From Solibacteraceae bacterium (GTDB taxonomy: Bacteria; Acidobacteriota; Terriglobia; Bryobacterales; Bryobacteraceae): a stretch of DNA of 64,000 bases. Both the position numbers and the translations under genes were made by a program. The notes under the pieces were generated by a model. It saw nothing but the letters and a program-made list of their open reading frames with translations. It made no database searches and was not told the DNA's origin. The stretch lies in the NCBI GenBank assembly GCA_021324015.1, contig JAJPJX010000214.1, positions 1-64,000 of the forward strand. The letters are read 5' to 3'. Positions 7,721 through 58,229 of this stretch are shown here, one piece after another. How positions within the stretch are numbered: the first letter of the stretch is position 1; every line of letters starts with the position of its first letter.

Positions 7721-8689
7721 CTATGCGCGCAGGGGCTGCTCCTGCGGCGAGGCGTTGTGCGGAGGCAGGATCCGGGTGGCCTGCTCCAGAACCAGCCACT
7801 GCCGGATGGCGGGAAGCGCTGCCTGCGCCGCCTGCTCGCCGGCCTCGATCAGCCGGTCGGCACTCTCGAACCCGTCCCATCCCACGCCCTGTACGTGCGG
7901 CGTAATCACCACGTCGGACAGCCGGCGCCAATCTCCTTCGGCGCGCCGCTGCATGATCTGGAAGCAGCGGTTCACCACCGCGAACATGTTGGGAGGCGGG
8001 GCAGCGGCAACCTCGAGGGGCAGGTTTACCGCCACCACCCGAGTAGCCCCCAAGTCCCGCGTCATGGCCGCGGGAATTTCCATGCTCATGGCCCCATCCA
8101 CCAGCAGGCGGTTCTGATAAGGCACCGGCTGGAACAGCCCGGGGTAGGAACAACTGGCGCGGATCGGCAGAATCACGTCGCCGCTGTCCCGGAACAGTAC
8201 GGCTTCCCCGGAGAGCAGGTCGGTGGCCACCACCCCCAACGGAATGCGCATCTCCTCGAAGCGGTCATGCTTCAGCAGACGGCGCAGGAACTTGGCCATC
8301 CGGTCGCTCCCCGCGAAGCCCAGGCGCGCGATGGTCCAACGGGCCACGTCGCCGAAGCGCATGGAGCGCGCCATGGCGGCGATCTCTTCGGACGAGGCGC
8401 CGCTGGCATAGGCGGCGGCCACCATGGAGCCGGCGCTCACTCCGGCAATGCAAGCAATTGGAATTCCGGCACGCTCGAACGCCCGCAGCACTCCGATGTG
8501 CGCGATCCCGCGGGCAAATCCGCCCCCCAAAGCCAAACCGACGCGCGCAGCCCCTTCCTGTGGCGCTTGTGCGGGCGATCTCCACCGCCTGCGCAGCGCC
8601 GGCCACCATCCCGCCAGCCTCCGCCCGGTCTCCACGCCCCCTCCTCGGCGCCATTCTCCGTCAACCTCCGCGGAGGAATGGTCTACCAT
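7721..8689 (-). CDS. Patatin-like phospholipase (RssA/NTE type)
   Basis: The 322-aa product is a patatin-fold serine hydrolase. It has the oxyanion glycine loop LALGGGFARGIAHIGVL (about residues 52-68), the nucleophile elbow GVSAGS and the catalytic aspartate in LLVDGAMS. Such enzymes cleave acyl esters of phospholipids or lysophospholipids with a Ser-Asp dyad. The first 45 residues are arginine-rich and low-complexity, and no clear ribosome-binding site precedes the start, so translation may begin further in. Its start lies only eight bases from that of the divergent deacetylase gene. Confidence 0.85.
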   Translation of the reverse strand: MVDHSSAEVDGEWRRGGGVETGRRLAGWWPALRRRWRSPAQAPQEGAARVGLALGGGFARGIAHIGVLRAFERAGIPIACIAGVSAGSMVAAAYASGASSEEIAAMARSMRFGDVARWTIARLGFAGSDRMAKFLRRLLKHDRFEEMRIPLGVVATDLLSGEAVLFRDSGDVILPIRASCSYPGLFQPVPYQNRLLVDGAMSMEIPAAMTRDLGATRVVAVNLPLEVAAAPPPNMFAVVNRCFQIMQRRAEGDWRRLSDVVITPHVQGVGWDGFESADRLIEAGEQAAQAALPAIRQWLVLEQATRILPPHNASPQEQPLRA

Positions 8690-8697
8690 TAAGTCAG

Positions 8698-11184
8698 ATG
8701 TGCACTCAGTCGCGCCCGTTCCCTCTTTTTCTCCTTTCTTTGTGCCTTGCGGTACCAGCCGCGGCGTGGCAAAGTCTGTCCGGCACGCCGGAGATCGAAC
8801 AGCGGCTCAAACGGCTCGAGACCGCCGGCAGCGTGCTCATGATCGGAGCGCATCCAGATGATGAGAATACCGCTGTGTTGGCCTATTTCGCGCGTGGCCG
8901 GCACTTCCGCACAGGCTATCTTTCCTGCACACGGGGCGAGGGCGGCCAGAACCTCATCGGGTCAGAGCAGGGCGACCTGTTGGGCGTCATCCGCACCCAG
9001 GAGTTGCTGGCCGCCCGCAAAATCGACGGCGCTGAGCAGTTCTTCACCCGCGCCATCGACTTCGGCTTCTCCAAGTCTGCCGACGAGGCGCTCTCCAAAT
9101 GGGGGCGGGAAAAGATCCTCTCCGACATGGTCTGGGTGATCCGACGCTTCCGCCCGGACGTGATTATCCTGCGCTTCTCCGGCACGCCCCGCGACGGCCA
9201 CGGACAGCACCAGGCGTCCGCCATTTTGGGCAAGGAAGCGTATTTTGCCGCCGCCGATCCGCAGCGCTTCCCCGAGCAATTGCGCCGGGTGCGGCCCTGG
9301 CGGGCCCGGCGCCTGCTGTTTAACGTGTTCAGCTTCACCCGCGACCAGGAACGCGCCGCGGCTGCCACCCCCGGCCGCCTGGAAATCGATACCGGAGACT
9401 TCAACCCGGTGCTGGGTGAGTCCTACAACGAGATTGCCGGCCGCAGCCGCAGTATGCACCGCAGCCAGAGCATGGGCGCCCCCCGCCGGCGCGGCCCCTC
9501 CCGGAATTTCCTGGTGCCGGTAGCCGGCGATCCGGCCCGGAGCGACCCTTTCGAGGGCATCGACACCACCTGGAACCGTGTGCCCGGCGGCGCGGCGGTC
9601 GAACCGCTGCTCTCCCAGGCCCACCGCGAGTTCCGCCCCGAACACCCGGAGCGCATCATCCCGCTGCTGCTTCAGGCCCGCCGCCTGGCGGCGGACCTGA
9701 AGGACGCCTGGGCCGAGGCCAAGCTGCCGGAATTCGATGAGGCGATCGCCTCCTGCGCCGGCTTGTGGCTGGCCGCCGAAACCGGCCACCCCACCGCCGT
9801 CCCCGGCGCCGCCTTCCAGGTGCGCGTTACGGCTCTCAACCGGTCTTCCTACCCGCTCACGCTGGAGCGGGTCCGCCTGGAAGGGCTCGGCGAGACCACC
9901 AGCCTGGACCTCCAGCCGCGCCGGCTGGAATACAACCAGCCGTTTACCGGCAACCTGGAGCGCAAAGTGCCCGCGGACGAGCCGCCCTCGCAGCCCTTCT
10001 GGCTGCGCCAGGCGCGCGAGGGCGACACCTACGTCATCGGCAGCCAGGAGCTGATCGGCGTGCCCGATTCGCCGCCGCTGCTACAGGCCCGCTTCGAGTT
10101 GGCGGCCGGGGGCTCGCACCTGGTGCTGGTGCGCCCCGTCGATTACCGCTACGTGGACCGCGTGCTGGGCGAGCTCACCCGCCCCTTCATCGTGGTTCCT
10201 GAAGTAGTGGTGAATCCGGCCGAACGAGTGGTCATGTTTCCCGGTAACGGGCCGCGCACTTTGCAGGTCGCGGTGCAGGCCAATGCCCCGAACACGGCGG
10301 GCGAGCTGCGCCTGCAGTTGGACGGTGGCTGGCAGGCCGACCCGCCGACGCAGCCGTTCCACTTGGCCGGGAGCGGCCAGCAGCAGGACCTGACGTTCCG
10401 CGTGACGCCTCCGGCCGGAGCCTCCCGCGCAATGCTGCGTGCCGTGGCCCAGGTGGACGGCCACCGTATCGACTCCGGCATGCGCGTAATCTCCTATCCG
10501 CACATCCCCATTGAGACCGTGTTCCCGGAGGCCGCCTCGCAGCTGGTGCGCGCGGACATCCGGGTAACCGCGCACAAGGTAGGCTACATCATGGGTGCGG
10601 GGGACGAAATGCCCGACGCCCTACGCCAGCTTGGCTGCGAAGTCACCCTCCTGAGCGCCTCCGACCTGGAGCAGCGCAACCTGGCCGAGTTCGACGCTAT
10701 CGTCACCGGGGTTCGCGCCTATAACGTGCGCCCCGACCTGCGCGCCAACCAGAGCCGCCTGCTGGACTACGTGCAGAAGGGCGGCACCCTCATCGTGCAG
10801 TACAACACTGCCGATGGCACTCTGCCTGAACTGGGGCCCTATCCCTTTACCGAGGGACGCGGCCGCGTGGCCGTCGAGGATGCCCCCGTGAGCCTGCCCG
10901 ATCCCGGGCACCCCCTGCTCCAGACGCCCAACCGGATCACCGCCCAGGATTTCGAAGGCTGGGTGCAGGAGCGCGGCCTCTACTTCGCCGAAAAATGGGA
11001 CCCGCGCTACCAGACCGTGCTGGTCTGCCACGATCCCAACGAAAAATCCCTCGCTGGAGGCGTGCTCTACACGCGCTACGGCAAAGGCGTCTATATTTTC
11101 AGCGCTTACTCCTGGTTCCGCGAGCTTCCCGCAGGCGTCGCCGGCGCCTACCGCTTGTTCGCCAACATGCTCAGCGCGAAGTAG
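8698..11184 (+). CDS. Secreted PIG-L (LmbE) deacetylase fused to C-terminal domains
   Basis: The product (828 aa) begins with a signal peptide (MCTQSRPFPLFLLSLCLAVP). The PIG-L deacetylase domain follows, with the zinc motif AHPDDE (residues 51-56) and the distal histidine motif DGHGQHQAS. Family members remove N-acetyl groups from GlcNAc-type substrates with Zn2+. The middle (about 450-620) looks like a beta-sandwich of the alpha-galactosidase-associated NEW3 kind. The last 220 residues (from VGYIMGAGDEMPDALRQLG to YGKGVYIFSAYSWFREL) resemble a ThuA/class I glutamine-amidotransferase-like fold, without an evident catalytic cysteine. It is probably an extracytoplasmic enzyme acting on amino-sugar glycans. 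The start was chosen for the signal peptide. Confidence 0.82.
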   Translation: MCTQSRPFPLFLLSLCLAVPAAAWQSLSGTPEIEQRLKRLETAGSVLMIGAHPDDENTAVLAYFARGRHFRTGYLSCTRGEGGQNLIGSEQGDLLGVIRTQELLAARKIDGAEQFFTRAIDFGFSKSADEALSKWGREKILSDMVWVIRRFRPDVIILRFSGTPRDGHGQHQASAILGKEAYFAAADPQRFPEQLRRVRPWRARRLLFNVFSFTRDQERAAAATPGRLEIDTGDFNPVLGESYNEIAGRSRSMHRSQSMGAPRRRGPSRNFLVPVAGDPARSDPFEGIDTTWNRVPGGAAVEPLLSQAHREFRPEHPERIIPLLLQARRLAADLKDAWAEAKLPEFDEAIASCAGLWLAAETGHPTAVPGAAFQVRVTALNRSSYPLTLERVRLEGLGETTSLDLQPRRLEYNQPFTGNLERKVPADEPPSQPFWLRQAREGDTYVIGSQELIGVPDSPPLLQARFELAAGGSHLVLVRPVDYRYVDRVLGELTRPFIVVPEVVVNPAERVVMFPGNGPRTLQVAVQANAPNTAGELRLQLDGGWQADPPTQPFHLAGSGQQQDLTFRVTPPAGASRAMLRAVAQVDGHRIDSGMRVISYPHIPIETVFPEAASQLVRADIRVTAHKVGYIMGAGDEMPDALRQLGCEVTLLSASDLEQRNLAEFDAIVTGVRAYNVRPDLRANQSRLLDYVQKGGTLIVQYNTADGTLPELGPYPFTEGRGRVAVEDAPVSLPDPGHPLLQTPNRITAQDFEGWVQERGLYFAEKWDPRYQTVLVCHDPNEKSLAGGVLYTRYGKGVYIFSAYSWFRELPAGVAGAYRLFANMLSAK

Positions 11185-14971: not shown

Positions 14972-16285
14972 CTACGCCGCGGTTGGCGCGGCCGTCACGC
15001 CGCGCTTCTCCAACGGCACAAAATCACGCGCCGCCTGTCCGGTGAATACCTGCCGGGGGCGGGCAATCTTTTGCTCGGCATCGCACAGCATCTCCTGCCA
15101 CTGGGCCAGCCAGCCCACGGTGCGGGGAATGGCGAACAGCACCGTTAACATCGCCGGCTGGAAGCCCATGGCCTGGTAGATGATCCCCGAGTAGAAATCC
15201 ACGTTCGGGTAGAGCTTGCGCTTGATGAAGTACTCGTCCTCGAGCGCGATGCGCTCCAACTCCAGCGCAATCTCCAGTTTCGGATTGCGGCCGGTGACCT
15301 CAAATACCTTATCCGCGGCCCACTTGATGATCCTGGCGCGAGGATCGTAGTTCTTGTAGATGCGGTGGCCGAAACCCATCAGCTTGAACTCGCCGGCCTT
15401 CACCTTGGCGATGTATGCCGGGACCTTGTCCTTGGAACCGATCTCGTCCAGCATCTTGAGGACTTCTTCGTTGGCCCCTCCGTGGAGAGGACCGGATAGC
15501 GCCGCCGCCGCTGCCGCGGTGGCCAGGAACGGATCCGCGTGCGAGCTGCCTACCGAGCGCATGGCGTTGGCGCTGCAGTTCTGCTCGTGGTCGGCGTGCA
15601 ATATAAACAGGATGTCCAGCGCCCGGGCCAAAACCGGATTGGCGATATACTTGGGCTCCACCATTTTCCACAGCATGTTCATGAAGTTTTCGGTGTAGCT
15701 CAGCTCGTTGTCCGGATAAACATAGGGGTAGCCGAGGCTGTGCCGGTAGGTGTACGCGGCGATGGTCGGCATTTTTCCGATTAGCCGCCGGATCTGCAGC
15801 GCTCTCACCTTGGGATCGAGCACCTCTCTCGACTCCGGGTAAACCGTAGAGAGCGCCGCTACCGTGCTGGCCAGCATCCCCATGGGATGCGCGTCATGGC
15901 GGAATCCCTCCAAAAACTTCTTGGTGGTCTCGTGCAGCATGGTGTGGTGGGTAATGTCGGCGACCCATTCCTTCAGTTGGGGCTCGGTCGGCAGTTCGCC
16001 GGACAACACCAGATAGGCCACTTCCAGAAAGCTGCACTTCTCCGCCAGTTGTTCGATGGGGTACCCGCGGTAGCGCAGGATACCTTTATCCCCATCGATG
16101 AACGTAATCGAACTTCGGCAGGACGCCGTGTTCATGAAAGCGGGGTCGTAGCTCATGAGCCCGAAATCCTCGGGTCCGGTCTTGATCTGCCGCAGGTCCA
16201 TGGCCCGGATGGTCCCATCATGGATCGGGATCTCATAGGCAGCCTGCGTGCGCTGGTCAACGATGCTTAAGGCTTCCTTTCCCAT
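14972..16285 (-). CDS. gltA: Citrate synthase
   Basis: The 437-aa enzyme condenses acetyl-CoA and oxaloacetate to citrate, the entry step of the TCA cycle. It has the hexameric type-II sequence. Catalytic histidines are seen in GPLHGGANE and GFGHRIYKNYDPRA, and the catalytic aspartate in YPNVDFYSG. The ATG at 16285 is chosen because AAGGGA lies just upstream and MGKEALSIVDQRT matches family N-termini; a longer in-frame start at 16357 is unlikely. It appears to be a single-gene transcript with its own promoter and a leader of about 140 bases. Confidence 0.95.
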   Translation of the reverse strand: MGKEALSIVDQRTQAAYEIPIHDGTIRAMDLRQIKTGPEDFGLMSYDPAFMNTASCRSSITFIDGDKGILRYRGYPIEQLAEKCSFLEVAYLVLSGELPTEPQLKEWVADITHHTMLHETTKKFLEGFRHDAHPMGMLASTVAALSTVYPESREVLDPKVRALQIRRLIGKMPTIAAYTYRHSLGYPYVYPDNELSYTENFMNMLWKMVEPKYIANPVLARALDILFILHADHEQNCSANAMRSVGSSHADPFLATAAAAAALSGPLHGGANEEVLKMLDEIGSKDKVPAYIAKVKAGEFKLMGFGHRIYKNYDPRARIIKWAADKVFEVTGRNPKLEIALELERIALEDEYFIKRKLYPNVDFYSGIIYQAMGFQPAMLTVLFAIPRTVGWLAQWQEMLCDAEQKIARPRQVFTGQAARDFVPLEKRGVTAAPTAA

Positions 16286-16431
16286 AGTTCCCTTCCCAAG
16301 ATTGTCCGCGGCGATACCCTTGTTCTCGCCGCCTTCTGGCCATCGTGCGCCCGGCACGACGGCGCCGCTCCTCGTGCAAACGAGACGAGGGCGGTTTCGC
16401 TTGCATGCCTTCTGTTTCGCTTCCCACGGCC

Positions 16432-17037: not shown

Positions 17038-17066
17038 TTGACAGTCGATGCGGATGGTGGCATACT
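17038..17066 (+). promoter_or_regulatory. Promoter of the aromatic amino-acid lyase gene
   Basis: A perfect -35 TTGACA (17038-17043) is followed after 17 bases by CATACT (17061-17066), four of six to the -10 consensus. Transcription would start near 17073, just before a leader hairpin, 40 bases from the ATG. Confidence 0.6.
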
Positions 17067-17074
17067 CTTGAATA

Positions 17075-17103
17075 GAAAGACACCACATGCAAGTGGTGCT
17101 TTC
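17075..17103 (+). promoter_or_regulatory. Leader hairpin directly before the lyase ribosome-binding site
   Basis: GAAAG-a-CACCAC (17075-17086) pairs with GTGGTG-CTTTC (17093-17103): 11 base pairs, one bulged A, a 6-base loop. It would occupy the very 5' end of the message and finishes two bases before the GAGGG Shine-Dalgarno (17105-17109). It could modulate translation or stabilise the transcript. Confidence 0.5.
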
Positions 17104-17112
17104 TGAGGGTCC

Positions 17113-18714
17113 ATGGCAACCGTTACCGCGTCATCTACGGCCATTCAGCTTTCTCTTCATTCTCTTACCCTCGAAGATATCATCGCGATTTCCCGGCACT
17201 ACCGGCACGTCGAATTGAGCGCCGAGGAGGAGTTCCGGCGGAACATTGCGCGCGGGCGCGAGACCTTGGAGCGTAAGCTCACCCAGGGTGAAGTGGTCTA
17301 TGGCGTCAACACGGGATTCGGCGGCAATGCTCGATTCGTGATTCCGGAAGACGAACTGGCGCACCACCAGCAGAACCTGCTGGAGTTCCTCTCCTGCGGC
17401 GTGGGCGAACCGCTTCCGGAGGAAGCCGTGCGGGCAGCCATCCTGCTGCGCGCGAACGCGCTGGCGCGCGGACTTTCGGCCGTGCGCCTGGTGGTGATCG
17501 AAAAACTGTTGGACCTGCTGAACCGCCGCATCACGCCGGTGGTGCCACGGTTCGGTTCGGTGGGCGCGAGCGGCGATTTATGCCCTTCCGCGTACATTGC
17601 GCGGGCTATGGCCGGGCGTGGCGAAGTCTTCTACCACGGCCGGCGCGTGCACGCCGCCGAAGCGCTGGCGCAGGAGAAACTCGAGCCGTTGCGATTGGAG
17701 GCCAAGGAAGGCCTGGCATTGCTGAACGGCACCACGGTGATGACCGGCGTGGCGTGCATGGTGGTGGACGAGGCGTCCTACCTGTTCCGGCTCTCCCTCG
17801 GGGCCATGGCGATGGCCGTGGAGGCGCTGCGCTCCTCGCCGGACTACTACCACCCGGCCATTCACATGGCCAAGCATCATCCCGGACAGGTGGCCGTGGC
17901 GGAGATGCTGAATTCGCTACTGTTCGATTCCAAGCTGGCCATTCCGCTCGACGACATCCGCCACCGGGTGGCCGAAGCCGAACGGCAGGCCCAGGCGCGG
18001 CACGACGTGGTCGCGGCCGGCGAATCGATCCAGAGCCCCTATTCCCTGCGCTGCGTGCCGCAAGGCCTGGGTCCCATGCAGGAGACGTTGCTCGAAGCGC
18101 GCACGGTGGTGGAGCGGGAGGCCAATTCAGTGAACGACAACCCGCTCATCGATCCGGTTTCCGACCGGGTGTATCACACCGGCAACTTTTACGGGGGGCA
18201 CATCGCGCGGGCGATGGACGGCCTGAAGCTGGACCTGACCAACCTGGCGAACTGGCTGCACTCGGTGCTGGCACTGCTGATGGACGAACGCTTCTCCAAC
18301 GGCCTGCCGCCGTCGCTGAGCCCGCATCCGGGCGTGTACCAGGGCTTCAAAGGGATGCAAATCGTGCATTCCAGCCTGGTCACGGCGATCCGCCACTGGA
18401 GCGCTCCCAGCCTGGTGCACACGCTGCCCACCGAGCAATTCAACCAGGACATCGTGAGCTTGGGGACCCACGCCGCGCTCACGGCCATGGACATCACGCG
18501 GCTGCTGCGTGACGCGGTGGCCATCACGCTGCTTTCGACCGCCCAGGCTGTGGATTTGCGGCAAGGAGGCGGACGGCTGGGCGCGGGTACACGGCCCATC
18601 TACCGGGCGATCCGTTCCGTGAGTCCTTTCGTCGAAGCCGACCGGGCGCTCGATAAGGATATCGCTGCGGTCGCCAGGCTGATTGAGGCACGGGAACTCC
18701 CGGTGCTGATCTGA
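17113..18714 (+). CDS. MIO-type aromatic amino-acid lyase, predicted phenylalanine-type (HutH superfamily)
   Basis: The 533-aa enzyme has the Ala-Ser-Gly triad (A152-S153-G154, in GSVGASGDL) that cyclises to the MIO electrophile, the catalytic Tyr63 (VVYGVNTGFGG) and N205 (LLNGT). The family deaminates His, Tyr or Phe, or moves the amino group to the beta carbon. Three features point away from histidine. The selectivity pair is F92-L93 (PAL-like; TAL has His-Leu, HAL has Ser-His). The C-terminal motif is EQFNQD (N444-Q445-D446), as in PAL/TAL, where HAL has an NQED-type sequence. KHHPGQ (around 254-259) matches plant-type PAL. No other hut genes are nearby. Predicted product is cinnamate, or beta-phenylalanine if it is a mutase. 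Confidence 0.85.
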   Translation: MATVTASSTAIQLSLHSLTLEDIIAISRHYRHVELSAEEEFRRNIARGRETLERKLTQGEVVYGVNTGFGGNARFVIPEDELAHHQQNLLEFLSCGVGEPLPEEAVRAAILLRANALARGLSAVRLVVIEKLLDLLNRRITPVVPRFGSVGASGDLCPSAYIARAMAGRGEVFYHGRRVHAAEALAQEKLEPLRLEAKEGLALLNGTTVMTGVACMVVDEASYLFRLSLGAMAMAVEALRSSPDYYHPAIHMAKHHPGQVAVAEMLNSLLFDSKLAIPLDDIRHRVAEAERQAQARHDVVAAGESIQSPYSLRCVPQGLGPMQETLLEARTVVEREANSVNDNPLIDPVSDRVYHTGNFYGGHIARAMDGLKLDLTNLANWLHSVLALLMDERFSNGLPPSLSPHPGVYQGFKGMQIVHSSLVTAIRHWSAPSLVHTLPTEQFNQDIVSLGTHAALTAMDITRLLRDAVAITLLSTAQAVDLRQGGGRLGAGTRPIYRAIRSVSPFVEADRALDKDIAAVARLIEARELPVLI

Positions 18715-18732: not shown

Positions 18733-20199
18733 CTACCTCACGAAGACCGAAGACCTGCCGGCGAAATCGAGCACCCAGCCGGGGAAGATTCCGAGAACCA
18801 GGGTGCCGAGGGCTGGCAGAACCAGGGCAGCGCGCAGGCCCGGGGTGAGGGGTTGTATGCGGCTGGCGGCTTCGCCGGGTTCGCGCATGTACATCATCAC
18901 CAAGATGCGCAAGTAGTAGTAGGCCGCCACCGCACTGTTCAGCAGGCCCAGCACGGTCAGCCAGACCAGGTGCGAATCGAGCGCCGCCTTGAAGATATAG
19001 AACTTGCCGAAAAAGCCGCCGGTCAGGGGCACGCCGATCAGCGAGAGCAGGAAGATGGAGAGCAGCGCCGCAGTGCCGGGTTGCTTGGCGCCGAGGCCAG
19101 CGAAGTCCTCCACCTTGAGGTAGCGCTCGCCCTTGCCGGAGAGGTGGCTGACCACGGCAAATGCGCCGATGTTCATGAAGGCGTAGGCGGCCATGTAGAA
19201 CATGGCGGCTGCCGTGCCGACATTGGAGCGCGCCGCCAGGGCCACGAGCACGTAGCCGGCGTGCGCAATCGAGCTATAGGCCAGCAGGCGCTTGATGTTG
19301 GATTGGGTGAGGGCCGCGAAATTGCCGAGGGTCATGGAAGCCAGCGCGCTGACCCACACCAGCGGTTCCCAGCCGGGGCCGATGGGTTGGAAAGCAGTCA
19401 GGAAAATGCGCAGGAAAATGGCGAAGGCAGCGGCCTTCGGCCCGGCCGAGAGGAAGGCGGCCACCGGCGTGGGAGCGCCCTGGTAAACATCCGGGGCCCA
19501 GATTTGGAATGGCGCGCCGGAGACCTTGAAACCCAGGCCCACAAACATGAGCGCGGCGGCGACGCCGATGAAGATGGGAGCCGAACCCAGAGAACCGCCC
19601 AGGATGGCACGCCGCACCGTGGCCAGGTTGGTACTGCCCGTCATGCCGTAAATCAGGGCCACCCCATAGAGGAAGAAGGCCGTGGCGAAGGAGCCCAACA
19701 GGAAATACTTGAGCGCCGCCTCATTGGCGCGCCGGTCGTCTCGCAGATATCCGGCCAGCACATAGCTGGCGATGGAGGAGATCTCCAGGCCGATGAAGAT
19801 CATGATGAGCTCGTTGGCCGTCACCATGACGCACTGGCCCACGATGGAAAAAAGCAGGAGGGCGTGGTACTCGCCGGTCTCGGCATCTTCGCGGTCCAGG
19901 TAGCGGTACGACGGCAGAACGGTCAGAATGCCCACGCCGATTACCACCACCCGGAAAAACGTGGCGAAGCCATCCACCATCAGCATGCCCGAGAACGCGG
20001 CGCCGGGGTCGCGGTAAACGTAGACGGCCGCCGCCATGGCGCCCAGCAGGGCCAGGATGGAGAAGTGCCCGTAGACGTGGCGCGACTGGCGCCCCAGCAG
20101 GGGGTCCAGCACCATGAACAGCGTGGCCACCACGGTCAGAATCAATTCCGGCAGGAACCGGATCATCTCCGCCGAGGTGGGAACCAGACTAGCGTACAC
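18733..20199 (-). CDS. nuoN: NADH-quinone oxidoreductase subunit N
   Basis: The 488-aa integral membrane protein of the Mrp-antiporter type is the most quinone-module-proximal of the three large proton-pumping subunits. It has about 14 helices with the family hallmarks GLEISSIASYVLAGY and the GAPTPVAAFLSAGPKAAAF helix. It begins with GTG, supported by GGAGGTG four to five bases upstream, and overlaps the end of nuoM by 11 bases. It is the last gene of the complex I operon. Confidence 0.95.
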   Translation of the reverse strand: MYASLVPTSAEMIRFLPELILTVVATLFMVLDPLLGRQSRHVYGHFSILALLGAMAAAVYVYRDPGAAFSGMLMVDGFATFFRVVVIGVGILTVLPSYRYLDREDAETGEYHALLLFSIVGQCVMVTANELIMIFIGLEISSIASYVLAGYLRDDRRANEAALKYFLLGSFATAFFLYGVALIYGMTGSTNLATVRRAILGGSLGSAPIFIGVAAALMFVGLGFKVSGAPFQIWAPDVYQGAPTPVAAFLSAGPKAAAFAIFLRIFLTAFQPIGPGWEPLVWVSALASMTLGNFAALTQSNIKRLLAYSSIAHAGYVLVALAARSNVGTAAAMFYMAAYAFMNIGAFAVVSHLSGKGERYLKVEDFAGLGAKQPGTAALLSIFLLSLIGVPLTGGFFGKFYIFKAALDSHLVWLTVLGLLNSAVAAYYYLRILVMMYMREPGEAASRIQPLTPGLRAALVLPALGTLVLGIFPGWVLDFAGRSSVFVR

Positions 20200-21721
20200 G
20201 GGCCACCTCCGCCGTCTGGGACTTGAGGGCCGGGGTTTTCACCTGGAATCGCACGTTTACCTTGGTTTGATCGAGGACCCGCCCGTCGGCCACGCTCACC
20301 GGGGGCAGGAAGCTTTGCGAATAAACGCCCATCCACACCATCATCACTACCAGCGGGATAATGCCGGCAAACTCGCGGGCGCTCAAGTCGTGGACGTGGC
20401 TGCTCACCTCCTGGCCGGCCGCGCCGTAGAATACGCGCTGGTACAGCCACAGCATGTAGCAGGCCGAGAGAATCACCCCCAGGGCGGCGAATACCGTCCA
20501 GGTGTAATTGGCCTGGGCTGAGCCTTGCAAGACCATGAATTCTCCGACGAAGTTGTTGAGGATCGGAAGACCGATGCTGGCGAGAGTGGTCACCAGGAAG
20601 ATGGCGGAGAGCCAGGGCGCGGGCGTGGCCACGCCTCCGAAATCCTTGATGAACAGGGAGTGCCGGCGCTCGTACAGATACCCCACCAGGATGAATAAGG
20701 CGCCGGTCGAAATGCCGTGGTTGAGCATCTGGTAGACCGCGCCGTCCAGGCCGATCTGCGTAAACGAAAAGATTCCCAGGACGACGAAGCCCAGGTGACT
20801 CACCGACGAATAGGCCACCAGTTTCTTCATGTTGGGCTGGACCATGGCCACCAGCGCTCCGTAGATGATGCCGATGATAGCCAGCACCGCGATCCAGGGG
20901 GCGCAGGAGCGCGCCGCCCCTGGGAACATCGGCAGACAGAAGCGCACCAGGCCGTAGCAGCCCATCTTCAGCATGACGGAGGCCAGCATCACCGAACCGG
21001 CTGTCGGCGCTTCCACGTGGGCGTCCGGCAGCCAGGTGTGCAGCGGGAACAACGGCACCTTGATAGCAAAAGCGATGAAGAAGGCCAGGAACAGCAGCAT
21101 CTGCTCGCCGCCGGACAGCGAGAGCCTGCCGCTGGAGAGCATTTCCATCAGCCCGGGGTAATCAAAGGTCCCCGTCCGGTTGTACAGGAAGATGATGGCG
21201 GCGAGCATCAGCATCGAGCCCGCCATGGTGTAAAGGAAAAACTTCACCGCCGCGTAGATGCGCCGCTCGTGCCCCCAGATGCCGATCAGGAAGTACATGG
21301 GGACCAGCGAGATCTCCCAGAACACGTAGAACAGGAACAGATCCTGGGCAGCAAACACACCTACCAGTCCGAGTTCCAGCAGCAGCAGGAAGGCGTAGAA
21401 CTCCTTGACGCGGCTTTGAATGTACTTCCAGGAAATCGCGACGCAGATAGGCGTGAGGAACGTGGAGAGAATGATCAGCCAGACGCTCAAGCCATCCACG
21501 CTCACGTGATAGTGGATGTTGGGCGAACGGATCCAGGGGACGTCGGTCACAAACTGCTCGCCGGCCCGGACACCGAAGCCCAAGCCCACGGAAACCCCGA
21601 AAGTCACCAGCGAGAAGACCAGCGCGCTGACTCGGATGAGGTGCTCGCTGGCCCGGGGCAGCACAAGCCCGGCCAGGAACCCCACCAGTGGCAAGAGCAG
21701 GACCAGGTCCAGCAAGTTCAT
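20189..21721 (-). CDS. nuoM: NADH-quinone oxidoreductase subunit M
   Basis: The 510-aa proton-pumping membrane subunit is of usual family length. The key glutamate helix (ELGLVGVFAAQDLFLFYVFWE), the lysine segment after FPLHTWLPDAHVEAPT and the VAYSSVSHLGFV helix are all present. Its ATG overlaps the nuoL stop (ATGA), so the two are translationally coupled. Sits in the membrane arm between NuoL and NuoN. Confidence 0.96.
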   Translation of the reverse strand: MNLLDLVLLLPLVGFLAGLVLPRASEHLIRVSALVFSLVTFGVSVGLGFGVRAGEQFVTDVPWIRSPNIHYHVSVDGLSVWLIILSTFLTPICVAISWKYIQSRVKEFYAFLLLLELGLVGVFAAQDLFLFYVFWEISLVPMYFLIGIWGHERRIYAAVKFFLYTMAGSMLMLAAIIFLYNRTGTFDYPGLMEMLSSGRLSLSGGEQMLLFLAFFIAFAIKVPLFPLHTWLPDAHVEAPTAGSVMLASVMLKMGCYGLVRFCLPMFPGAARSCAPWIAVLAIIGIIYGALVAMVQPNMKKLVAYSSVSHLGFVVLGIFSFTQIGLDGAVYQMLNHGISTGALFILVGYLYERRHSLFIKDFGGVATPAPWLSAIFLVTTLASIGLPILNNFVGEFMVLQGSAQANYTWTVFAALGVILSACYMLWLYQRVFYGAAGQEVSSHVHDLSAREFAGIIPLVVMMVWMGVYSQSFLPPVSVADGRVLDQTKVNVRFQVKTPALKSQTAEVARVR

Positions 21722-23556
21722 CGGACGCCTCCTGCCATGGCCATGGCCACCATCAGGACGACGGAACCGAAAACCACCCAGGTGGCGTAACTGCGAATGC
21801 TCCCAGATTGCAGCAGGCGGAGGATGCCGCCGATGCCGCGCGCGCTCCAGCCCAGCCCGTTGACCCCGGCATCAATGAGGCCCACATCTACTCCCTTCCA
21901 GAGCAGGCTGCGCGATCCGTTGACCACCGGCTTAACCACCGCGGCGTCATAGATCTCATCCACGAAGTACTTGTTGTAAATCAGCTTGTACACGCCGCTG
22001 AAGCTGGCTGCCAGGGAATCCGGCAAGCTCGGTTTGACTACGTAGAACAGCGCCGCGAGGCCTATGCCGGCAAGGCCGATGGCCACCGAGACAGCCACCA
22101 GGGTGACGTCGTGCGATTCCTCGATGGGCGGGAACAGCCGCTCCAGGAACTGGGGCACGTCGAACAGAAACCCGCCGGCCAGGGAGAGGAATGCCAGCGC
22201 CGCCAGCGGGAGAATCATCACCGGCGGCGATTCATGGGGATGCTCGTGGCCGCGGTAGGCGCCGAAGAACGCCAGGAAGATGGCGCGGAAGACATAGAAC
22301 GCGGTCAGGCCGGCGGTGATAGCGCCCACCCAATAGATCCACGGGGCCCGCTGGTACGCCGCGGCCAGAATCATATCCTTGCTGTAGAACCCGGAAAAGG
22401 GAGGAACTCCGGCGATGGCTACGGCGGCACACAGCATAGTCCAGAAGGTCCAGGGGATTTTCTTAGCAAGGCCGCCCATGCGGCGCACGTCCTGCTCCCC
22501 GGAGAGGGCATGAATCACGCTGCCCGAACCGAGGAAGAGCAGGGCCTTGAAGAAGGCGTGCGTCACCAGGTGGTAGATGCCGGCCGAAAACGCCCCCACG
22601 CCGGCACCCACGAACATGTAGCCTAACTGCGAGACCGTGGAGTAGGCGAATATCTTCTTGATATCGTTCTGCAGCAGGCCGATGGTGGCGGAGAAGAAGG
22701 CGGTGGCCAGGCCAATGAGGGCCACGGCCTCCTGCGCGACCGGCGCGTGGATGTAGATCACGTTGGATCGCGCCACCATGTACACCCCGGCGGTCACCAT
22801 GGTGGCGGCGTGGATGAGGGCGGAGACCGGCGTGGGACCTTCCATGGCGTCCGGCAGCCAGACGTAAAGTGGAATCTGCGCCGACTTGCCGCAAGCGCCC
22901 ACCAGCAGCAGCAGGCCGATGGTGTTGAGCAACGTTTCCGGCTTGCCGGGCACATTGGCGAAGACTCCGCCGAAATCCAGGGTGCCGAAATTCAGGAAGA
23001 CCAGAAAAATGGCCAAAGAGAAGCCGAAGTCGCCGATACGGTTGACGATGAAAGCCTTGTTGCCGGCGTTGGTGGCGCTCTGCCGGAGGAAATAGAAGCC
23101 GATCAGCAGGTAGCTGCACAGGCCCACGCCTTCCCAGCCCACGAACAGCACCAGGTAGTTGGCGGCCAGCACCAGCGTGAGCATGAAGAACATGAACAGG
23201 TTCAGGTACGCGAAGAAGCGATAGTACCCGCCCTCATGCCCCATGTAGCCGACCGAGTAGATATGGATCAGCGCGCCAACGCCCGTGACCACAAGCAGCA
23301 TGACAACGGTGAGGCGATCGACGGCGAAATCAAAATTCACCTGGAGGGCGCCGCTCTGGATCCAGGTGAAGTAGTGCTCCACATAGCGCGAACTGACGTC
23401 GCCCAGGCCCATGATGGTCTTGAGGACCCAGGCGAAGGAGAGTAGCACGGAGCCGATGGCTACCGCATTGATGAAGCCTTTCGAGGCGCGGCGGCCCAGC
23501 AGGCCGTTGATCAGGAAACCCGCCAGGGGGAATGCAGGGATGAGCCAGAGTTGCAT
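21718..23556 (-). CDS. nuoL: NADH-quinone oxidoreductase subunit L
   Basis: The 612-aa distal proton-pumping subunit carries GWEGVGLCSYLLIGFY, VWLPDAMEGPTPVSALIHAATMV and the AYSTVSQLGYMF helix. After the antiporter core, the C-terminal region provides the long lateral helix that ties the membrane arm together. It lies 25 bases after nuoK. All expected features are present and it looks intact. Confidence 0.96.
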   Translation of the reverse strand: MQLWLIPAFPLAGFLINGLLGRRASKGFINAVAIGSVLLSFAWVLKTIMGLGDVSSRYVEHYFTWIQSGALQVNFDFAVDRLTVVMLLVVTGVGALIHIYSVGYMGHEGGYYRFFAYLNLFMFFMLTLVLAANYLVLFVGWEGVGLCSYLLIGFYFLRQSATNAGNKAFIVNRIGDFGFSLAIFLVFLNFGTLDFGGVFANVPGKPETLLNTIGLLLLVGACGKSAQIPLYVWLPDAMEGPTPVSALIHAATMVTAGVYMVARSNVIYIHAPVAQEAVALIGLATAFFSATIGLLQNDIKKIFAYSTVSQLGYMFVGAGVGAFSAGIYHLVTHAFFKALLFLGSGSVIHALSGEQDVRRMGGLAKKIPWTFWTMLCAAVAIAGVPPFSGFYSKDMILAAAYQRAPWIYWVGAITAGLTAFYVFRAIFLAFFGAYRGHEHPHESPPVMILPLAALAFLSLAGGFLFDVPQFLERLFPPIEESHDVTLVAVSVAIGLAGIGLAALFYVVKPSLPDSLAASFSGVYKLIYNKYFVDEIYDAAVVKPVVNGSRSLLWKGVDVGLIDAGVNGLGWSARGIGGILRLLQSGSIRSYATWVVFGSVVLMVAMAMAGGVR

Positions 23557-23581
23557 CTCGGGTATATCTTTCCGGCGGCCT

Positions 23582-23947
23582 TCAGGGCACGCTCACCGGG
23601 GCCGTTTCGGAGGCCTCCTCCGGTTGCGCCGGCTGGTATTCGTCCTTCATGGAGTTGAGGTCGTCGATGTTGAGCGTGTTGCGGTTCTTGAACACGGTCA
23701 GGATGATGGCCAGTCCCACGGCGGCCTCCGCGGCGGCCACCACCATGACGAAGAAGGTGAAGATCTGGCCGTCGACCCTGCGGAACGCATACGAAAAGGA
23801 AATGAAGCTCAGGTTCACGGCGTTGAGCATCAGTTCGATGGACATGAACACCGTGATGATGTTGCGCCGGAACAGAAAACCGGCGGCGCCCAGCGTAAAG
23901 AGCACGCCGCTGAGCGTGAGGTACCAGGAAAGGGGGACCGCATTCAT
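23582..23947 (-). CDS. nuoK: NADH-quinone oxidoreductase subunit K
   Basis: The 121-aa three-helix subunit has the conserved membrane glutamates in [18 protein letters not shown] and [12 protein letters not shown]. The start [10 protein letters not shown] at 23947 is chosen on family length; its ATG lies one base before the nuoJ stop, so the two overlap. A C-terminal tail of about 20 hydrophilic residues (from [10 protein letters not shown]) is longer than in E. coli. Confidence 0.95.
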
Positions 23948-23948
23948 T

Positions 23949-24449
23949 TCAGTCGAGCTCCTTTCGCGCCAGCACGATGGCCCCAAGGATGGCGATCAGG
24001 ATGAGCACCGAGGTGACCTCGAAGGGCAGCAGGTATTGGGTGAAGAGCGCGCGGCCGACGGCCACCGCCGTGCCGCCACGGAAGGCTCCGAAACGCACCA
24101 TGGGGGCGCCCGGAAAGAGCCGCTGGGCGAAGTAGACCAGCAGCCCCAGCAGGGCGATCAGCAGCGGGGCGCCCAGCACCTGGACCACGAAGGAGCGGCC
24201 GCGATGCACCTCCTCGCCCGCGTTGAGCAGCATGATCACGAACACGAACAAAACCATCACGGCGCCGGCGTACACGATGACCTGCGCGGCGGCGATGAAC
24301 TCGGCGCCCAGCAGCAGGTACAGCACAGCCAGCGAGCCCATCACGCCGATCAGGGAAAGGGCGCTCGCGATGGGGTGGGTCTGCACCACGACGTTGATGG
24401 CGCAGAGCACCGCGATGATAGCGAAAACCAAAAACAGAATGACGTCCAT
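23949..24449 (-). CDS. nuoJ: NADH-quinone oxidoreductase subunit J
   Basis: The 166-aa membrane subunit starts [17 protein letters not shown] and shows the conserved [28 protein letters not shown] helix pair, whose pi-bulge transmits conformational change. The true start is at 24449; the longer frame reads into the end of nuoH. Only 14 bases separate it from nuoH, leaving no room for nuoI, which normally sits here. Confidence 0.95.
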
Positions 24450-24463
24450 CTCAGGAGTCCATC

Positions 24464-25654
24464 TCAGGGAACCAGGGCCACCAGAAGTCCGGTGACCAGC
24501 AGGTTCAGGACGGCCACCGGGAAAAGGAACTTCCAGGTGAAAGCCATCAATTGGTCGTATCGGAAGCGCGGCAGCGTGCCGCGGATCCAGATGAACACGA
24601 ACAACAGGAAGCCGGTCTTGGCCGCGAACCAGAACAGCGGCAGGATGGCCTCCCGCGCGGCCGGGAGCAGGAAGACCGCCGCCAGCGCGAAGAAGACCAC
24701 CGCGAACACGGGCAGGGTGAAGCGATCCTTGCGCCGCGCCGGATTCAGGCCGTGGTACAGCGCAACCAGGCCGGCCAGCACGAAAATCACTGGCGGCACG
24801 AGATTCGAGCCCATGCTTGCGGGAAACAGCGGCTGCCACCCGCCCAGAAACAGGATGGTGGTCAGGCAAGTAACCGTAATCATGTTGGCGTATTCGGCCA
24901 TGAAGAACGCCGCGAATTTCATGCTGCTGTATTCGGTGTGGAAACCGGCCACCAGTTCGTTTTCCGCCTCCGGCAGGTCAAAGGGCACGCGGTTGGTCTC
25001 GGCAAATCCGGCGATGACGAAGATCAGAAAACTGATGATCTGCGGCCAAGGCCCTTGAAAGATGTTCCAGCGGGGCAGGAAGCCGAACTCGAAGCCTCCC
25101 TGCTTCTGCACCAGTTCACGCAGGCTCAGGGTGTTGGCGAGCAGCAGCGGCGAGGCGATGGCCAGGCTCAGGGGTAGCTCGTAACTGATCATCTGAGCCG
25201 AGCTGCGCAAGCCCCCCAGCAGCGAATACTTGTTGTTGGAAGCCCACCCGGCCAGGGCGATTCCGTAGACCCCCATGGAGGAGACCGCCAGGATGAACAG
25301 CACGCCGATGTTCAGATCGGTAAGCTGCATCCACGTGGTCTGTCCCAGCACCCGCACTTCGGAGCCGAACGGGATGACGGAAATCGACAGCAGCGACATG
25401 GTGATGGCCAGGAACGGCGCGGCCAGGTAAAAAAACTTGTTGACGTGCGGCGGAATGAGGTCTTCTTTGGTGATCAGCTTGATCACGTCCGCCAAAGGCT
25501 GCAGCAGGCCGTGCGGACCTACGCGCGAGGGTCCCAGCCGCACCTGGATGTGCGCAATCACCTTGCGCTCCACCCACTGCAGGTAGGCCAGCGTGGTCAG
25601 CAGCACGGCAGCGACCACCGCAGCCTTAATCAGGCTCAGGAGGAGGAAGTCCAT
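24464..25654 (-). CDS. nuoH: NADH-quinone oxidoreductase subunit H
   Basis: The 396-aa membrane subunit forms the quinone-access chamber with NuoB and NuoD. Family hallmarks are RKVIAHIQVRLGPSRVGPHG, SLLGGLRSSAQMISYELPL and FAETNRVPFDLPEAENELVAG. Length is slightly above the usual. The ATG shares bases with the nuoG stop. The charged loops that face the quinone site are present. Confidence 0.95.
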   Translation of the reverse strand: MDFLLLSLIKAAVVAAVLLTTLAYLQWVERKVIAHIQVRLGPSRVGPHGLLQPLADVIKLITKEDLIPPHVNKFFYLAAPFLAITMSLLSISVIPFGSEVRVLGQTTWMQLTDLNIGVLFILAVSSMGVYGIALAGWASNNKYSLLGGLRSSAQMISYELPLSLAIASPLLLANTLSLRELVQKQGGFEFGFLPRWNIFQGPWPQIISFLIFVIAGFAETNRVPFDLPEAENELVAGFHTEYSSMKFAAFFMAEYANMITVTCLTTILFLGGWQPLFPASMGSNLVPPVIFVLAGLVALYHGLNPARRKDRFTLPVFAVVFFALAAVFLLPAAREAILPLFWFAAKTGFLLFVFIWIRGTLPRFRYDQLMAFTWKFLFPVAVLNLLVTGLLVALVP

Positions 25655-27705
25655 CAGCGGTTATTGCGACTTTCTACGACGGAGTTCAGTACTTTAGAAT
25701 AGCGCCCCAGCGTACCGGAGGTGAACAGACTATCCCTTGCGGACCGGATCAGATCAGGCCGGCCATCCAGCGGGATACGGCCGTTCACCGGCATGGTTTG
25801 GGCGGCTCCGCCGGCGGCGACCACCGGCACCGGGATGTCGTATCCCCGCACGCTTCTGCGAATCTCGTCGAACACTTTTTCCGCGGTCCAGGGGCCCATT
25901 ACCGGGGCGGCGCCCATTTCCCGGGCGATCAGCCCGATGATCTCCAGATCCGGCTTGGTGCCCATAGTGCCCAGGGCTTTCTTGAGCTTCTGTACTTCGC
26001 CGCACACATTGGTCACCGTGCCGTTCTTTTCGTAGGCGCAGGCGGCCGGCAGGACCACGTCCGCAGCCCTCGCGGTCTCGGTGAGGAACATGTCCTGGAC
26101 CACCACAAACGCGCTCCGCGAGCGCAGTTCGCCGGCCTTCAGCGGATTGGCGCCCACCACCCAGAACGCGTCCAGGTCCCCGGCCGCCAGCATCTCCGGC
26201 AAGGCCAGCCCGCCGGCATCCGGCAACAGGCCCATATCCACCGCGCCGCGAGAATTCGAATAGTCCACCAGGGCGACGTATTTTACGGGGATGCCCAACG
26301 ACTCGCCGAAATCCACCAGCCGGCGGACCGCCTCGCCCTTGACCACATCGCCAAAGACGATGACCAGTTCCGGTTCGGCGGCGAGTTTGGCGCGCAGGGA
26401 CTCCAGGGGACCGAAAACATCCGCGCAGGCGTCGCGCAGGCTGACCGCGGCCACCGCGTCCTCGCGCACGGGGCGCGGCGTGACCACGTAGACATGCGCC
26501 TGGTGATGGCGGTAGTTGGCGCGGATCTGGAAGGACAGGAAGGGGTGCTCCAGCGCCAGGTCAGCGCCGACCACCAGCACGGCCTTGCGCTGGTACAGAT
26601 CGGCCGAGACGGCGAGTTTGCCGGTCTTGCCGCTGAGCGCATCCAGTAGCGCCGGCACATCGCCGGTGCGGTGATGATCGATGTTGCCTGTCCCCAGCAC
26701 CTGGCGCCCGAACTTTTGCAGGTAGAAGTCCTCTTCGTTGCTGGTGTGGTTAGAGCCCACGACGGCGAACTTCCCGCCCGCCTCGCGGACCTGCTGGAAC
26801 TTCTTCGCCACCGTCTCGATGGCCTGCGACCAGGAGACCGGCTCGAGCTTGCCGTCAACCTTCAAAAGCGGCGATTGCAGACGCTCGGGGTGATTGTAGA
26901 AATCGAAGGCGTAACGCCCCTTCACGCACAGGAATTCGTCGTTGATGCCCGAGCGGTCGCGGTTATTGCCGCGGATGATCTGGTTGTTCCGCACGCCCAG
27001 CGTGGTCTTGCAGCCGTCGGCGCAGTGTGCGCAGATGGTGCCGACGTGCTCCATCTCCCAGGGGCGGGTATGGTAGCGGTACGCGCCGCTGGTCAGAGCG
27101 CCCACCGGGCAGATGTCGATGCACATGCCGCACTCATCGCACTCCAGGTGGTCCTGCTTGTTGGGCGCGATTTCGGAAACCACCCCGCGGTTCACGATCC
27201 CCAGGGCGTTGACGCCCATGCCCTCGTTGCAGATGCGCACGCAGCGGTAGCACAGAATGCAGCGCGGCATGTCATAGAAGACCACCGGCGACCACTGCTT
27301 CTCCGGTTTGTGGACCTTGTTCTCGCTGAAGCGGCTCTCTCCGGCGCCGTACCGGAAAGTCATGTCCTGCAACTCGCACTCGCCGCCCTTGTCGCACACC
27401 GGACAATCCAGTGGATGGTTGGCCAGCAGGAACTCCAGCATGGATTTGCGCGCGGCGGCGACCGTGGGCGTCTCCGTGCGCACCACCATGCCTTCCGCCA
27501 CCGGCAGCGTGCAGGAAGTCATCAGCTTCGGCATCTTCTCCACTTCCACCAGGCACATGCGGCAGGCGGCCTGAAGCGAAAGCCCTTCGTAGTAGCAGAA
27601 GGCCGGCACCTCGATGCCGGCGCGCTTGGCCGCATCGATGACCAGCGTGCCCGGAGGGGCCTGCACCGGCTTCCCATCAATCGTCAGATTTACCAAATCA
27701 GCCAT
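25654..27705 (-). CDS. nuoG: NADH-quinone oxidoreductase subunit G (Fe-S, molybdopterin-like fold)
   Basis: The 683-aa peripheral subunit carries the electron path. The N1b 2Fe-2S ligands are C37, C48, C51, C65. The N5 ligands are H97, C101, C104, C110. The N4 cysteines lie in CILCYRC (C149, C152, C155) with C199, and the second CxxCxxC segment is at 189-195. The optional N7 cluster motif is complete (C225, C228, C232 and C260 after 27 residues), as in E. coli. A molybdopterin-oxidoreductase-like domain without the cofactor follows. Eleven bases after nuoF. Confidence 0.94.
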   Translation of the reverse strand: MADLVNLTIDGKPVQAPPGTLVIDAAKRAGIEVPAFCYYEGLSLQAACRMCLVEVEKMPKLMTSCTLPVAEGMVVRTETPTVAAARKSMLEFLLANHPLDCPVCDKGGECELQDMTFRYGAGESRFSENKVHKPEKQWSPVVFYDMPRCILCYRCVRICNEGMGVNALGIVNRGVVSEIAPNKQDHLECDECGMCIDICPVGALTSGAYRYHTRPWEMEHVGTICAHCADGCKTTLGVRNNQIIRGNNRDRSGINDEFLCVKGRYAFDFYNHPERLQSPLLKVDGKLEPVSWSQAIETVAKKFQQVREAGGKFAVVGSNHTSNEEDFYLQKFGRQVLGTGNIDHHRTGDVPALLDALSGKTGKLAVSADLYQRKAVLVVGADLALEHPFLSFQIRANYRHHQAHVYVVTPRPVREDAVAAVSLRDACADVFGPLESLRAKLAAEPELVIVFGDVVKGEAVRRLVDFGESLGIPVKYVALVDYSNSRGAVDMGLLPDAGGLALPEMLAAGDLDAFWVVGANPLKAGELRSRSAFVVVQDMFLTETARAADVVLPAACAYEKNGTVTNVCGEVQKLKKALGTMGTKPDLEIIGLIAREMGAAPVMGPWTAEKVFDEIRRSVRGYDIPVPVVAAGGAAQTMPVNGRIPLDGRPDLIRSARDSLFTSGTLGRYSKVLNSVVESRNNR

Positions 27706-27715
27706 GGAAAGACTT

Positions 27716-29029: not shown

Positions 29030-29035
29030 GCTCGG

Positions 29036-29518
29036 TTATTGGGCCTTTCTCAGGCTGTCGAGGAGCCGGTCGAGCTTCTCGGGGGTCATCTGGTGATGGA
29101 AGGCATAGTTCACCTGGAGCGCGGGAGCCCAAGAACAGGCGCCGATGCATTCCACCTCTTCGAGCGAAACCTGCCCGTCGGCGGTGACCTCTTTGTGGCC
29201 GATGCCCAGCTTCTTGCAGGCGTGCTGCCAGAGTTCTTCGCCCCCGGTGAGCAGGCAACTGATGTTGGTGCAGATCTGCACGTGGTAGCGGCCGAGGGGC
29301 TTGCGGTGCAGCATGGAGTAGTAGCTCATGACCTCCTCCACCTGCAGTGGTTCGACGCCCACGCGCCGCGCCACCTCCTCTACCAGTTCCGGGGTGACCG
29401 ACCCCAGTTCGTCCTGCGCGTACAGCAGCATGGGGATCATCGCCGAACGCTGCCGTCCCGGCGGATAGCTTTTCAGAAGCTTGTCAAACCGCGCTTCCAG
29501 CTCAGCAGAAAGAGTCAT
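29036..29518 (-). CDS. nuoE: NADH-quinone oxidoreductase subunit E (2Fe-2S)
   Basis: The 160-aa thioredoxin-fold subunit holds the N1a 2Fe-2S cluster. Ligands are in ICTNISCLL and ECIGACSWAP, followed by the family VNYAFH segment. The start MTLSAELEARFDKLL at 29518 is chosen on homology to family N-termini; a longer frame overlaps nuoD. The 77 bases between nuoD and nuoE are the largest gap in the upstream half of the operon. Confidence 0.94.
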   Translation of the reverse strand: MTLSAELEARFDKLLKSYPPGRQRSAMIPMLLYAQDELGSVTPELVEEVARRVGVEPLQVEEVMSYYSMLHRKPLGRYHVQICTNISCLLTGGEELWQHACKKLGIGHKEVTADGQVSLEEVECIGACSWAPALQVNYAFHHQMTPEKLDRLLDSLRKAQ

Positions 29519-29595
29519 TGGTTTCGCAAAAGAGCGGCAGAGCACAACCCGGTTGCAGTGCCGCATTCGGACCGAATCGCTTGCATCCCGGCCCC

Positions 29596-53873: not shown

Positions 53874-53879
53874 GTACCC

Positions 53880-54932: not shown

Positions 54933-54999
54933 GAACTCGAACCTGAACTAACGCCGATCGGTCTGAACATCCGTGCACCCGAAAAACTATAGGAAAGCG

Positions 55000-55962: not shown

Positions 55963-55965
55963 GTG

Positions 55966-57647: not shown

Positions 57648-57688
57648 GCGTGGCCTCGGCCGGCTCCCCTGGTATCATGGTGAATGCA

Positions 57689-58228: not shown

Positions 58229-58229
58229 G

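Follow-up and report, generated by a model that had tools for sequence, protein, structure and literature searches.

Bacterial phenylalanine ammonia-lyases (PALs) are rare according to the available parts of PMC5651878 and PMC3903478, as had also been held in the first-pass annotation of the DNA analysed here. The roles given for them in the accessible text of these two papers and of PMC8773403 are the making of antibiotics, stilbenes and similar products. In the EncP route of Streptomyces maritimus, as outlined in the portion of PMC8773403 at hand, phenylalanine is converted via cinnamate to benzoyl-CoA, the starter unit of enterocin. A pair of selectivity residues distinguishes the enzymes: F-L is found in PALs, S-H in histidine ammonia-lyases (HALs) and H-L or H-Q in tyrosine ammonia-lyases (TALs) (PMC3903478, in part), while in the accessible part of PMC5651878 F-L is set against Y-H and F-H and several Phe/Tyr switches are reported. 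The exchange His89Phe turns RsTAL to phenylalanine, as recounted in an excerpt of PMC9002059. RxPAL of Rubrobacter xylanophilus and the PALs of PMC5651878 (in part) are bacterial enzymes recognised by F-L. Among the titles and abstract openings listed in a literature search, which mostly covered papers outside subscription, none described a PAL from Acidobacteriota or a bacterial one whose gene adjoins box genes or genes of benzoyl-CoA reductase.

The gene described here lies in the window, the whole stretch of 64,000 nucleotides that was analysed, in the genome (G000; 8.23 Mb, 98.8% complete) of a soil acidobacterium. Its features are the following:

17038..17043, plus strand: -35 box TTGACA, with a spacing of 17 bp to the -10 box; four relatives have similar boxes
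17061..17066, plus strand: -10 box CATACT
17081..17098, plus strand: palindrome CACCAC-N6-GTGGTG, candidate operator, near the expected transcription start
17105..17109, plus strand: GAGGG, Shine-Dalgarno-like, preceding the ATG
17113..18714, plus strand: MIO-dependent aromatic ammonia-lyase gene, predicted PAL
17386..17391, plus strand: TTC CTC codons of F92-L93, the substrate selectivity pair, equivalent to AvPAL F107-L108 and to F-L of PcPAL
17566..17574, plus strand: codons of A152-S153-G154, the MIO cofactor precursor
17872..17889, plus strand: KHHPGQ (K254-Q259); K254 and H256-Q259 invariant in 18 clade sequences, H255 variable
18433..18450, plus strand: EQFNQD (E441-D446); E441/Q445 equivalent to AvPAL E448/Q452, with S and E in crystallised HALs

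The open reading frame is intact from ATG to stop, encodes 533 aa and is under purifying selection (dN 0.13, dS 1.14 against the 81% identical orthologue L177). Residues 18-501 match PF00221 with 541.6 bits at a curated cut-off of 27.3, and together with the A-S-G tripeptide this makes the protein a full-length member of the MIO superfamily. Like AvPAL (PDB 2nyn, 3czo, 5ltm), it has F-L, K, E and N-Q and stands on the same side of the tree; it differs in overall sequence (39.8% identity over 462 columns), in FNQD for FNQN and in some twelve additional residues near 277-300. Parsley PcPAL (1w27) shares F-L, KHHPGQ and EQ[HF]NQD, but its identity is 33% (462 columns) and its length 716 aa. Fold, MIO tripeptide and PF00221 are common to HutH as well.

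In the NCBIfam scan the protein scored below the respective cut-off of all eight models listed. The highest score was that of PRK09367 (HAL; 442 bits, cut-off 524); the other models were TIGR01225 (hutH; 426, cut-off 539), the aminomutase models TIGR04475/TIGR04473 (D-beta-Phe mutase 406, cut-off 800; L-beta-Phe mutase 247, cut-off 1250), FlxA TAL (374, cut-off 700), Tyr mutase (353, cut-off 501), BagA (352, cut-off 1000) and the PAL model TIGR01226 (350, cut-off 519). The latter has 680 positions and the match to the window protein ends at 502, so the shortfall is put down to the model itself; as the score is below the cut-off, "PAL" is used here for a predicted function and not for a filed membership. 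In the first-pass annotation it was expected that an automatic pipeline would call the gene a HAL. A HAL model does top the scores but stays below its cut-off, and since the same applies to every model, such a label would come from the top raw score only.

F92-L93, EQFNQD and KHHPGQ are located where the first-pass annotation had placed them, and had been read there as three independent positions against a HAL. At the positions of AvPAL K419, E448 and N451-Q452 the window protein has K413, E441, N444 and Q445, as PALs do, although these residues are also common to the tyrosine-type relative L178. Its selectivity pair is the hydrophobic F-L of PALs and not a TAL pair (H-L, H-Q or Y-H); in place of the S-H pair and the E-D motif [NQK]-E-D of HutH proteins, F-L and N-Q-D are present. 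Among the references, S-H occurs in the three crystallised HALs and in SgTAM, H-L in RsTAL, A-V in AdmH and C-L in the yew phenylalanine aminomutase TcPAM.

Additionally, 24 positions around the active site were compared with AvPAL, and the window protein was identical at 21. The counts were 22 for PcPAL, 18 for RsTAL, 17 for SgTAM, 15 for AdmH and 14, 14 and 13 for the crystallised HALs; among relatives, L177 and L002 reached 21, L139 22, L062 20 and the HutH-type L001 14, and the 19 members of the clade described below ranged from 16 to 21. Four of the positions, Y78, Q311, R317 and H359, are named in the available part of PMC5651878, from whose 19-residue motif the set of 24 differs. As a decisive measure the match count was rejected, because the paralogue L002 with its F-H pair also reaches 21 of 24.

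Within the clade, F-L is carried by the window gene, L177, L062, L011, L065 and L066. The other close relatives have V-L (L016), Y-L (L020), S-L (L063), M-L (L067) and Y-H (L178), and the eight members of a deeper branch have E-L (one), Q-L (two), H-L (four) and H-M (one), so that the switch residue is F, V, Y, S or M in close relatives and E, Q or H in the deeper branch. KHHPGQ and EQFNQD were considered as evidence for Phe over Tyr and rejected, since the Y-H relative L178 carries both. Two of the three positions named in the first-pass annotation thus argue against HAL only and do not tell Phe from Tyr; F-L alone would argue for Phe over Tyr.

L178 (72% identical to the window protein) bears on the possibility that the window gene encodes an ammonia-lyase acting on tyrosine, or on both Phe and Tyr, with p-coumarate as product. 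The start codon of L178 overlaps the stop codon of a phenylalanine 4-monooxygenase gene (ATGA; 318 bits, cut-off 247), whose product would supply the lyase with tyrosine; this Y-H enzyme and the H-L pairs of the deeper branch suggest that changes of substrate come readily to the clade. For the window protein itself this reading is unlikely, given that F92-L93 is the PAL pair in the accessible parts of PMC3903478 and PMC5651878, that the RsTAL exchange recounted in the excerpt of PMC9002059 points the same way, and that cinnamate agrees better than p-coumarate with the box genes found near L062.

The phylogenetic tree comprised 83 rows, made up of 19 members of the clade, 8 references and 56 further sequences, which were picked from 131 aligned sequences plus two later additions; partial sequences were excluded and the remainder was thinned by hand. 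HAL and FlxA labels of unnamed rows were assigned from motif and host. The PAL references were AvPAL and PcPAL; EncP, StlA, RxPAL, BlPAL, SrPAL, PbPAL and TcPAM were absent from the tree. The 19-gene clade was recovered with a support of 99/96*. A further split (97/91*) places the clade, PcPAL, AvPAL, an AvPAL-like Desulfovibrio protein and three candidate-phylum or unnamed bacterial sequences on one side, and HALs, RsTAL, SgTAM, AdmH, FlxA-like (flexirubin-type) and other lyases on the other. The window protein thereby groups with the characterised PALs AvPAL and PcPAL and not with the HAL, TAL and aminomutase references. The branches of PcPAL, RsTAL, AdmH and L079 are long and their placement is therefore less sure. 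When the 19 clade rows and 23 HAL rows (including L043 and L048, both inside the HALs) were forced into one clade, the tree was worse by 114 log units and was rejected by the AU test (p-AU 1.0e-5). On the phylogeny that the first-pass annotation had suggested as a check, the window protein thus stands outside the HALs and on the PAL side.

The host genome carries three PF00221 genes, namely a HutH type (L001, contig C210; S-H, NKED), an F-H paralogue and the window gene. The absence of hutU from the window, pointed out in the first-pass annotation, holds, as the only urocanase match of the genome lies on another contig (C214). A divergent HAL, for which the top NCBIfam score could be cited, is thus opposed by the scores below both HAL cut-offs, the lack of S-H and of the E-D motif, the tree and AU test, and the separate HutH-type gene and urocanase of the genome. 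Its probability is minimal, and it is close to certain that the window protein is not a HAL. The F-H paralogue (G000:C4:51771-53126; L002, L061) has ECHNQD and adjoins an AMP-ligase gene whose product is 46% identical to the ligase beside L063; a nearby ORF resembles a thioesterase by eye, and the locus is perhaps a natural-product locus.

A sequence search of the PDB gave the aminomutase AdmH as best match (299 bits), with AvPAL at 290 and PbPAL (9eq5) at 254 bits. The clade may be nearer kin to RxPAL or another PAL of PMC5651878 (in part), since of these enzymes, which come from other source lineages and are set apart here by description, PbPAL alone was compared by sequence. An AlphaFold2 model built with 18 clade sequences had a mean pLDDT of 85.7 and a pTM of 0.88, and in a VIA-align comparison AvPAL ranked first (Z 42.6, 2.0 A, 479 residues), tied with AdmH (42.1) and HAL (41.9). 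Fold comparison was therefore rejected as a means of separating PAL from HAL (Z 42.6 vs 41.9).

PAL or aminomutase had been the alternatives proposed in the first-pass annotation, and of these the PAL is supported by F-L and the side of the tree. A phenylalanine 2,3-aminomutase, whose product would be beta-phenylalanine, would have the same fold and the same cofactor, and AdmH is the best PDB match. It shares, however, only 15 of the 24 positions and lies on the opposite side of the tree, on a long branch; the pairs of TcPAM (C-L) and AdmH (A-V) are not F-L, the scores for TIGR04475 and TIGR04473 are below the cut-offs, and the window genes scanned included none for a peptide or polyketide synthase. 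We regard an aminomutase as improbable.

The window gene is accordingly predicted, with a probability of roughly 75%, to encode a Phe-preferring ammonia-lyase. The PAL reading is supported, not proven, by the F-L pair, the side of the tree and the gene neighbours of some relatives. The enzyme would convert L-phenylalanine to ammonia and trans-cinnamate, with MIO presumably formed from A152-S153-G154, Y63, N205, R313 and Q445 expected to hold the amino acid, and F92-L93 likely to hold the unsubstituted phenyl ring.

The gene neighbours of the relatives differ between loci. L062 (F-L, 74% identical; it matches genome G411, of the same family as the window genome) has a convergent enoyl-CoA hydratase gene followed by boxC, boxB and a benzoate-CoA ligase gene, which exceed the curated cut-offs (BoxC 876 bits, cut-off 712; BoxB 803, cut-off 499; benzoate-CoA ligase 558, cut-off 375). 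No lyase was found in five further box loci from the order (G399, G419, G421, G391 and G439; G400 and G462 not included) or at the box locus of G021, and the only L062-type hydratase in the five was one 37% partial match, in L190. L020 (Y-L) starts 54 bp behind a Dch-like gene, itself behind a Had-like gene, upstream of which BcrB- and BcrC-like genes lie on the same strand across a gap of about 1.2 kb; all four matches are below the equivalog cut-offs (Dch 182/293, Had 252/339, BcrB 379/487 and BcrC 333/421 bits). The MIO tripeptide of L020 (L143:3-1397) is A-G-G (codon GGC) instead of A-S-G; this copy may be inactive or the assembly may contain an error at that base.

The lyase genes of L065 and L066 (both F-L) overlap an acyl-CoA ligase gene by ATGA, with thiolase-type genes behind, and L063 (S-L) is followed after 8 bp by an 80% identical ligase homologue and then by thiolase-type genes. 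L065 and L066 have nearly the same sequence and were counted once; their near-identical loci are filed under the names Deltaproteobacteria and Nitrospirae, through a mistake in binning or through recent transfer. A nearby AMP-ligase gene is no hallmark of the clade, as several control loci carry one too. At the other clade loci no such pathway genes were present in the flanks examined, some of which were short. Directly upstream of four deeper-branch lyases lies a conserved gene of about 280 aa (L068:2602-3450, L071:5750-6577, L072:1164-2021 and L073:8864-9703); two copies were scanned, one having no Pfam match and the other weak Ig-like matches below the cut-offs. In L199 (G411:C95), pieces of a phenylalanine-hydroxylase-like gene occur in two frames, which indicates a broken gene or an assembly error.

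As a control, 64 other lyase loci (L077-L141 except L086; 18 kb on average) were searched by tblastn for BoxB, BoxC, BcrB, BcrC and the monooxygenase, and no match was obtained at 1e-15. Box or Bcr genes are in the flanks of 2 of 19 clade genes versus 0 of 64 controls (Fisher p 0.05), and with the monooxygenase included the numbers are 3 of 19 versus 0 of 64 (p 0.01), in comparisons whose groups were named after seeing the data and whose flanks are unequal in length. Co-occurrence within the order is weak, the lyase being present in 7 and BoxB in 9 of 257 genomes and both in two (G411 and G021; hypergeometric p 0.02).

A promoter layout is common to several of the genes. Upstream of L177, L062, L011 and L016, as in the window, TTGAC is followed after 17-18 bp by CATACT or CATAAT, and the exact palindrome CACCAC-N6-GTGGTG lies 7-14 bp past the -10 box. 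The palindrome in the window (CACCACATGCAAGTGGTG) ends 14 bp before the ATG. In 2.06 Mb of loci and window, some loci overlapping, exact matches occur at these five sites only (13 locus rows, copies of the five); at up to one mismatch the window has a single match, compared with 0.14 in shuffled sequences. L067 has the palindrome with one mismatch. L178 and L020, which alone in the eight-gene subclade lack it, both lie behind other genes of their groups. Ten remaining clade members (300 bp upstream; L069 not included) gave no match with fewer than three mismatches. The palindrome is read as a putative operator. An RNA hairpin was considered as an alternative: the arms are constant in the five sites while loop and flanks vary, and the change in L067 is uncompensated, so that a protein-binding site fits better. 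It may bind a repressor answering to phenylalanine or cinnamate.

In the relatives, cinnamate could pass by way of cinnamoyl-CoA and a shortening of the side chain to benzoyl-CoA, and this would be opened by the box or the benzoyl-CoA reductase route. PAL plus enoyl-CoA hydration and side-chain shortening to benzoyl-CoA is also the pattern of the EncP route in the available part of PMC8773403; EncP, likened here by description and not by sequence, serves antibiotic synthesis, whereas some relatives adjoin benzoyl-CoA degradation genes. A wider reading, which we offer tentatively and hold to be somewhat doubtful, is that the clade forms a dedicated catabolic PAL branch, in which phenylalanine would be degraded via cinnamate to benzoyl-CoA with ring opening by the oxygen-dependent box or the benzoyl-CoA reductase route, a shared repressor would act on CACCAC-N6-GTGGTG, and switching from F-L to Y-H together with a phenylalanine hydroxylase would give a parallel tyrosine route.

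A search for an operon around the window gene found none. Upstream lie a citrate synthase gene on the opposite strand (14972-16357) and a gene for a large outer-membrane protein, and the nuo genes (N, M, L, H, G, F and 49-kDa subunit; 18733-30825, minus strand) are convergent with the lyase. No pathway neighbours were present at the window gene or on the 9.8-kb contig of L177, with which the window has only the lyase and a PIG-L deacetylase-like gene (window 8458-11184; L177:1447-4356) in common. A row of glycosyltransferase-like genes (52782-60578, minus strand) adjoins an alanine racemase gene (51642-52772).

Searches of the window genome returned no BoxB, BcrB, ring-hydroxylating dioxygenase PF00848 or PF00351, for BoxC only weak crotonase matches (best 38 bits), and for benzoate-CoA ligase at best 254 bits (cut-off 375); enoyl-CoA hydratase and AMP-ligase genes are present, but general ones. 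As this genome lacks the ring-degradation markers searched, the benzoyl-CoA reading draws on the relatives only. The orphan position of the gene, the lack of these markers and the variable switch residue would also suit an ammonia-lyase that acts on some other aromatic amino acid or on a modified one and supplies an as yet undescribed pathway. The pocket equals that of a PAL at 21 of 24 positions and has no new charged group there, and we consider such a substrate very improbable, slightly more so than an aminomutase. The preferred reading remains a Phe-preferring lyase.

Named genomes were scanned for further relatives with the window protein aligned to four of its relatives, which yielded at least 80 loci. 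A close group of at least 16 was 47-74% identical and the next at most 42%; two of the 16 are incomplete and four coincide with genes found in G003, G019 and G021. In the order, the gene is present in 7 of 257 genomes including that of the window (E 1e-105 or better), the nearest being 81% identical. In a sample of the phylum, 109 of 199 genomes had matches at E 1e-60 or better; among the matches listed, the window's own aside, all were at most 40% identical except one (48% over 267 residues). Of 395 genomes from the phylum to which the L065 genome belongs, one had a clade member, the one already known. As far as sequence can place it, the clade is a rare, little-known new branch on the side of plant and cyanobacterial PALs.

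If the wider reading is true, soil bacteria would have a further way of breaking down phenylalanine, through a PAL branch connected with ring degradation, and cinnamate and benzoyl-CoA would join amino acid catabolism to that of aromatics. Nature also provides a test of the selectivity pair within the branch, since close relatives with F-L and Y-H adjoin genes that predict different substrates. PALs are described, in the accessible parts of the sources, as being used in phenylketonuria therapy and amino acid synthesis, and a new branch would therefore be of practical interest.
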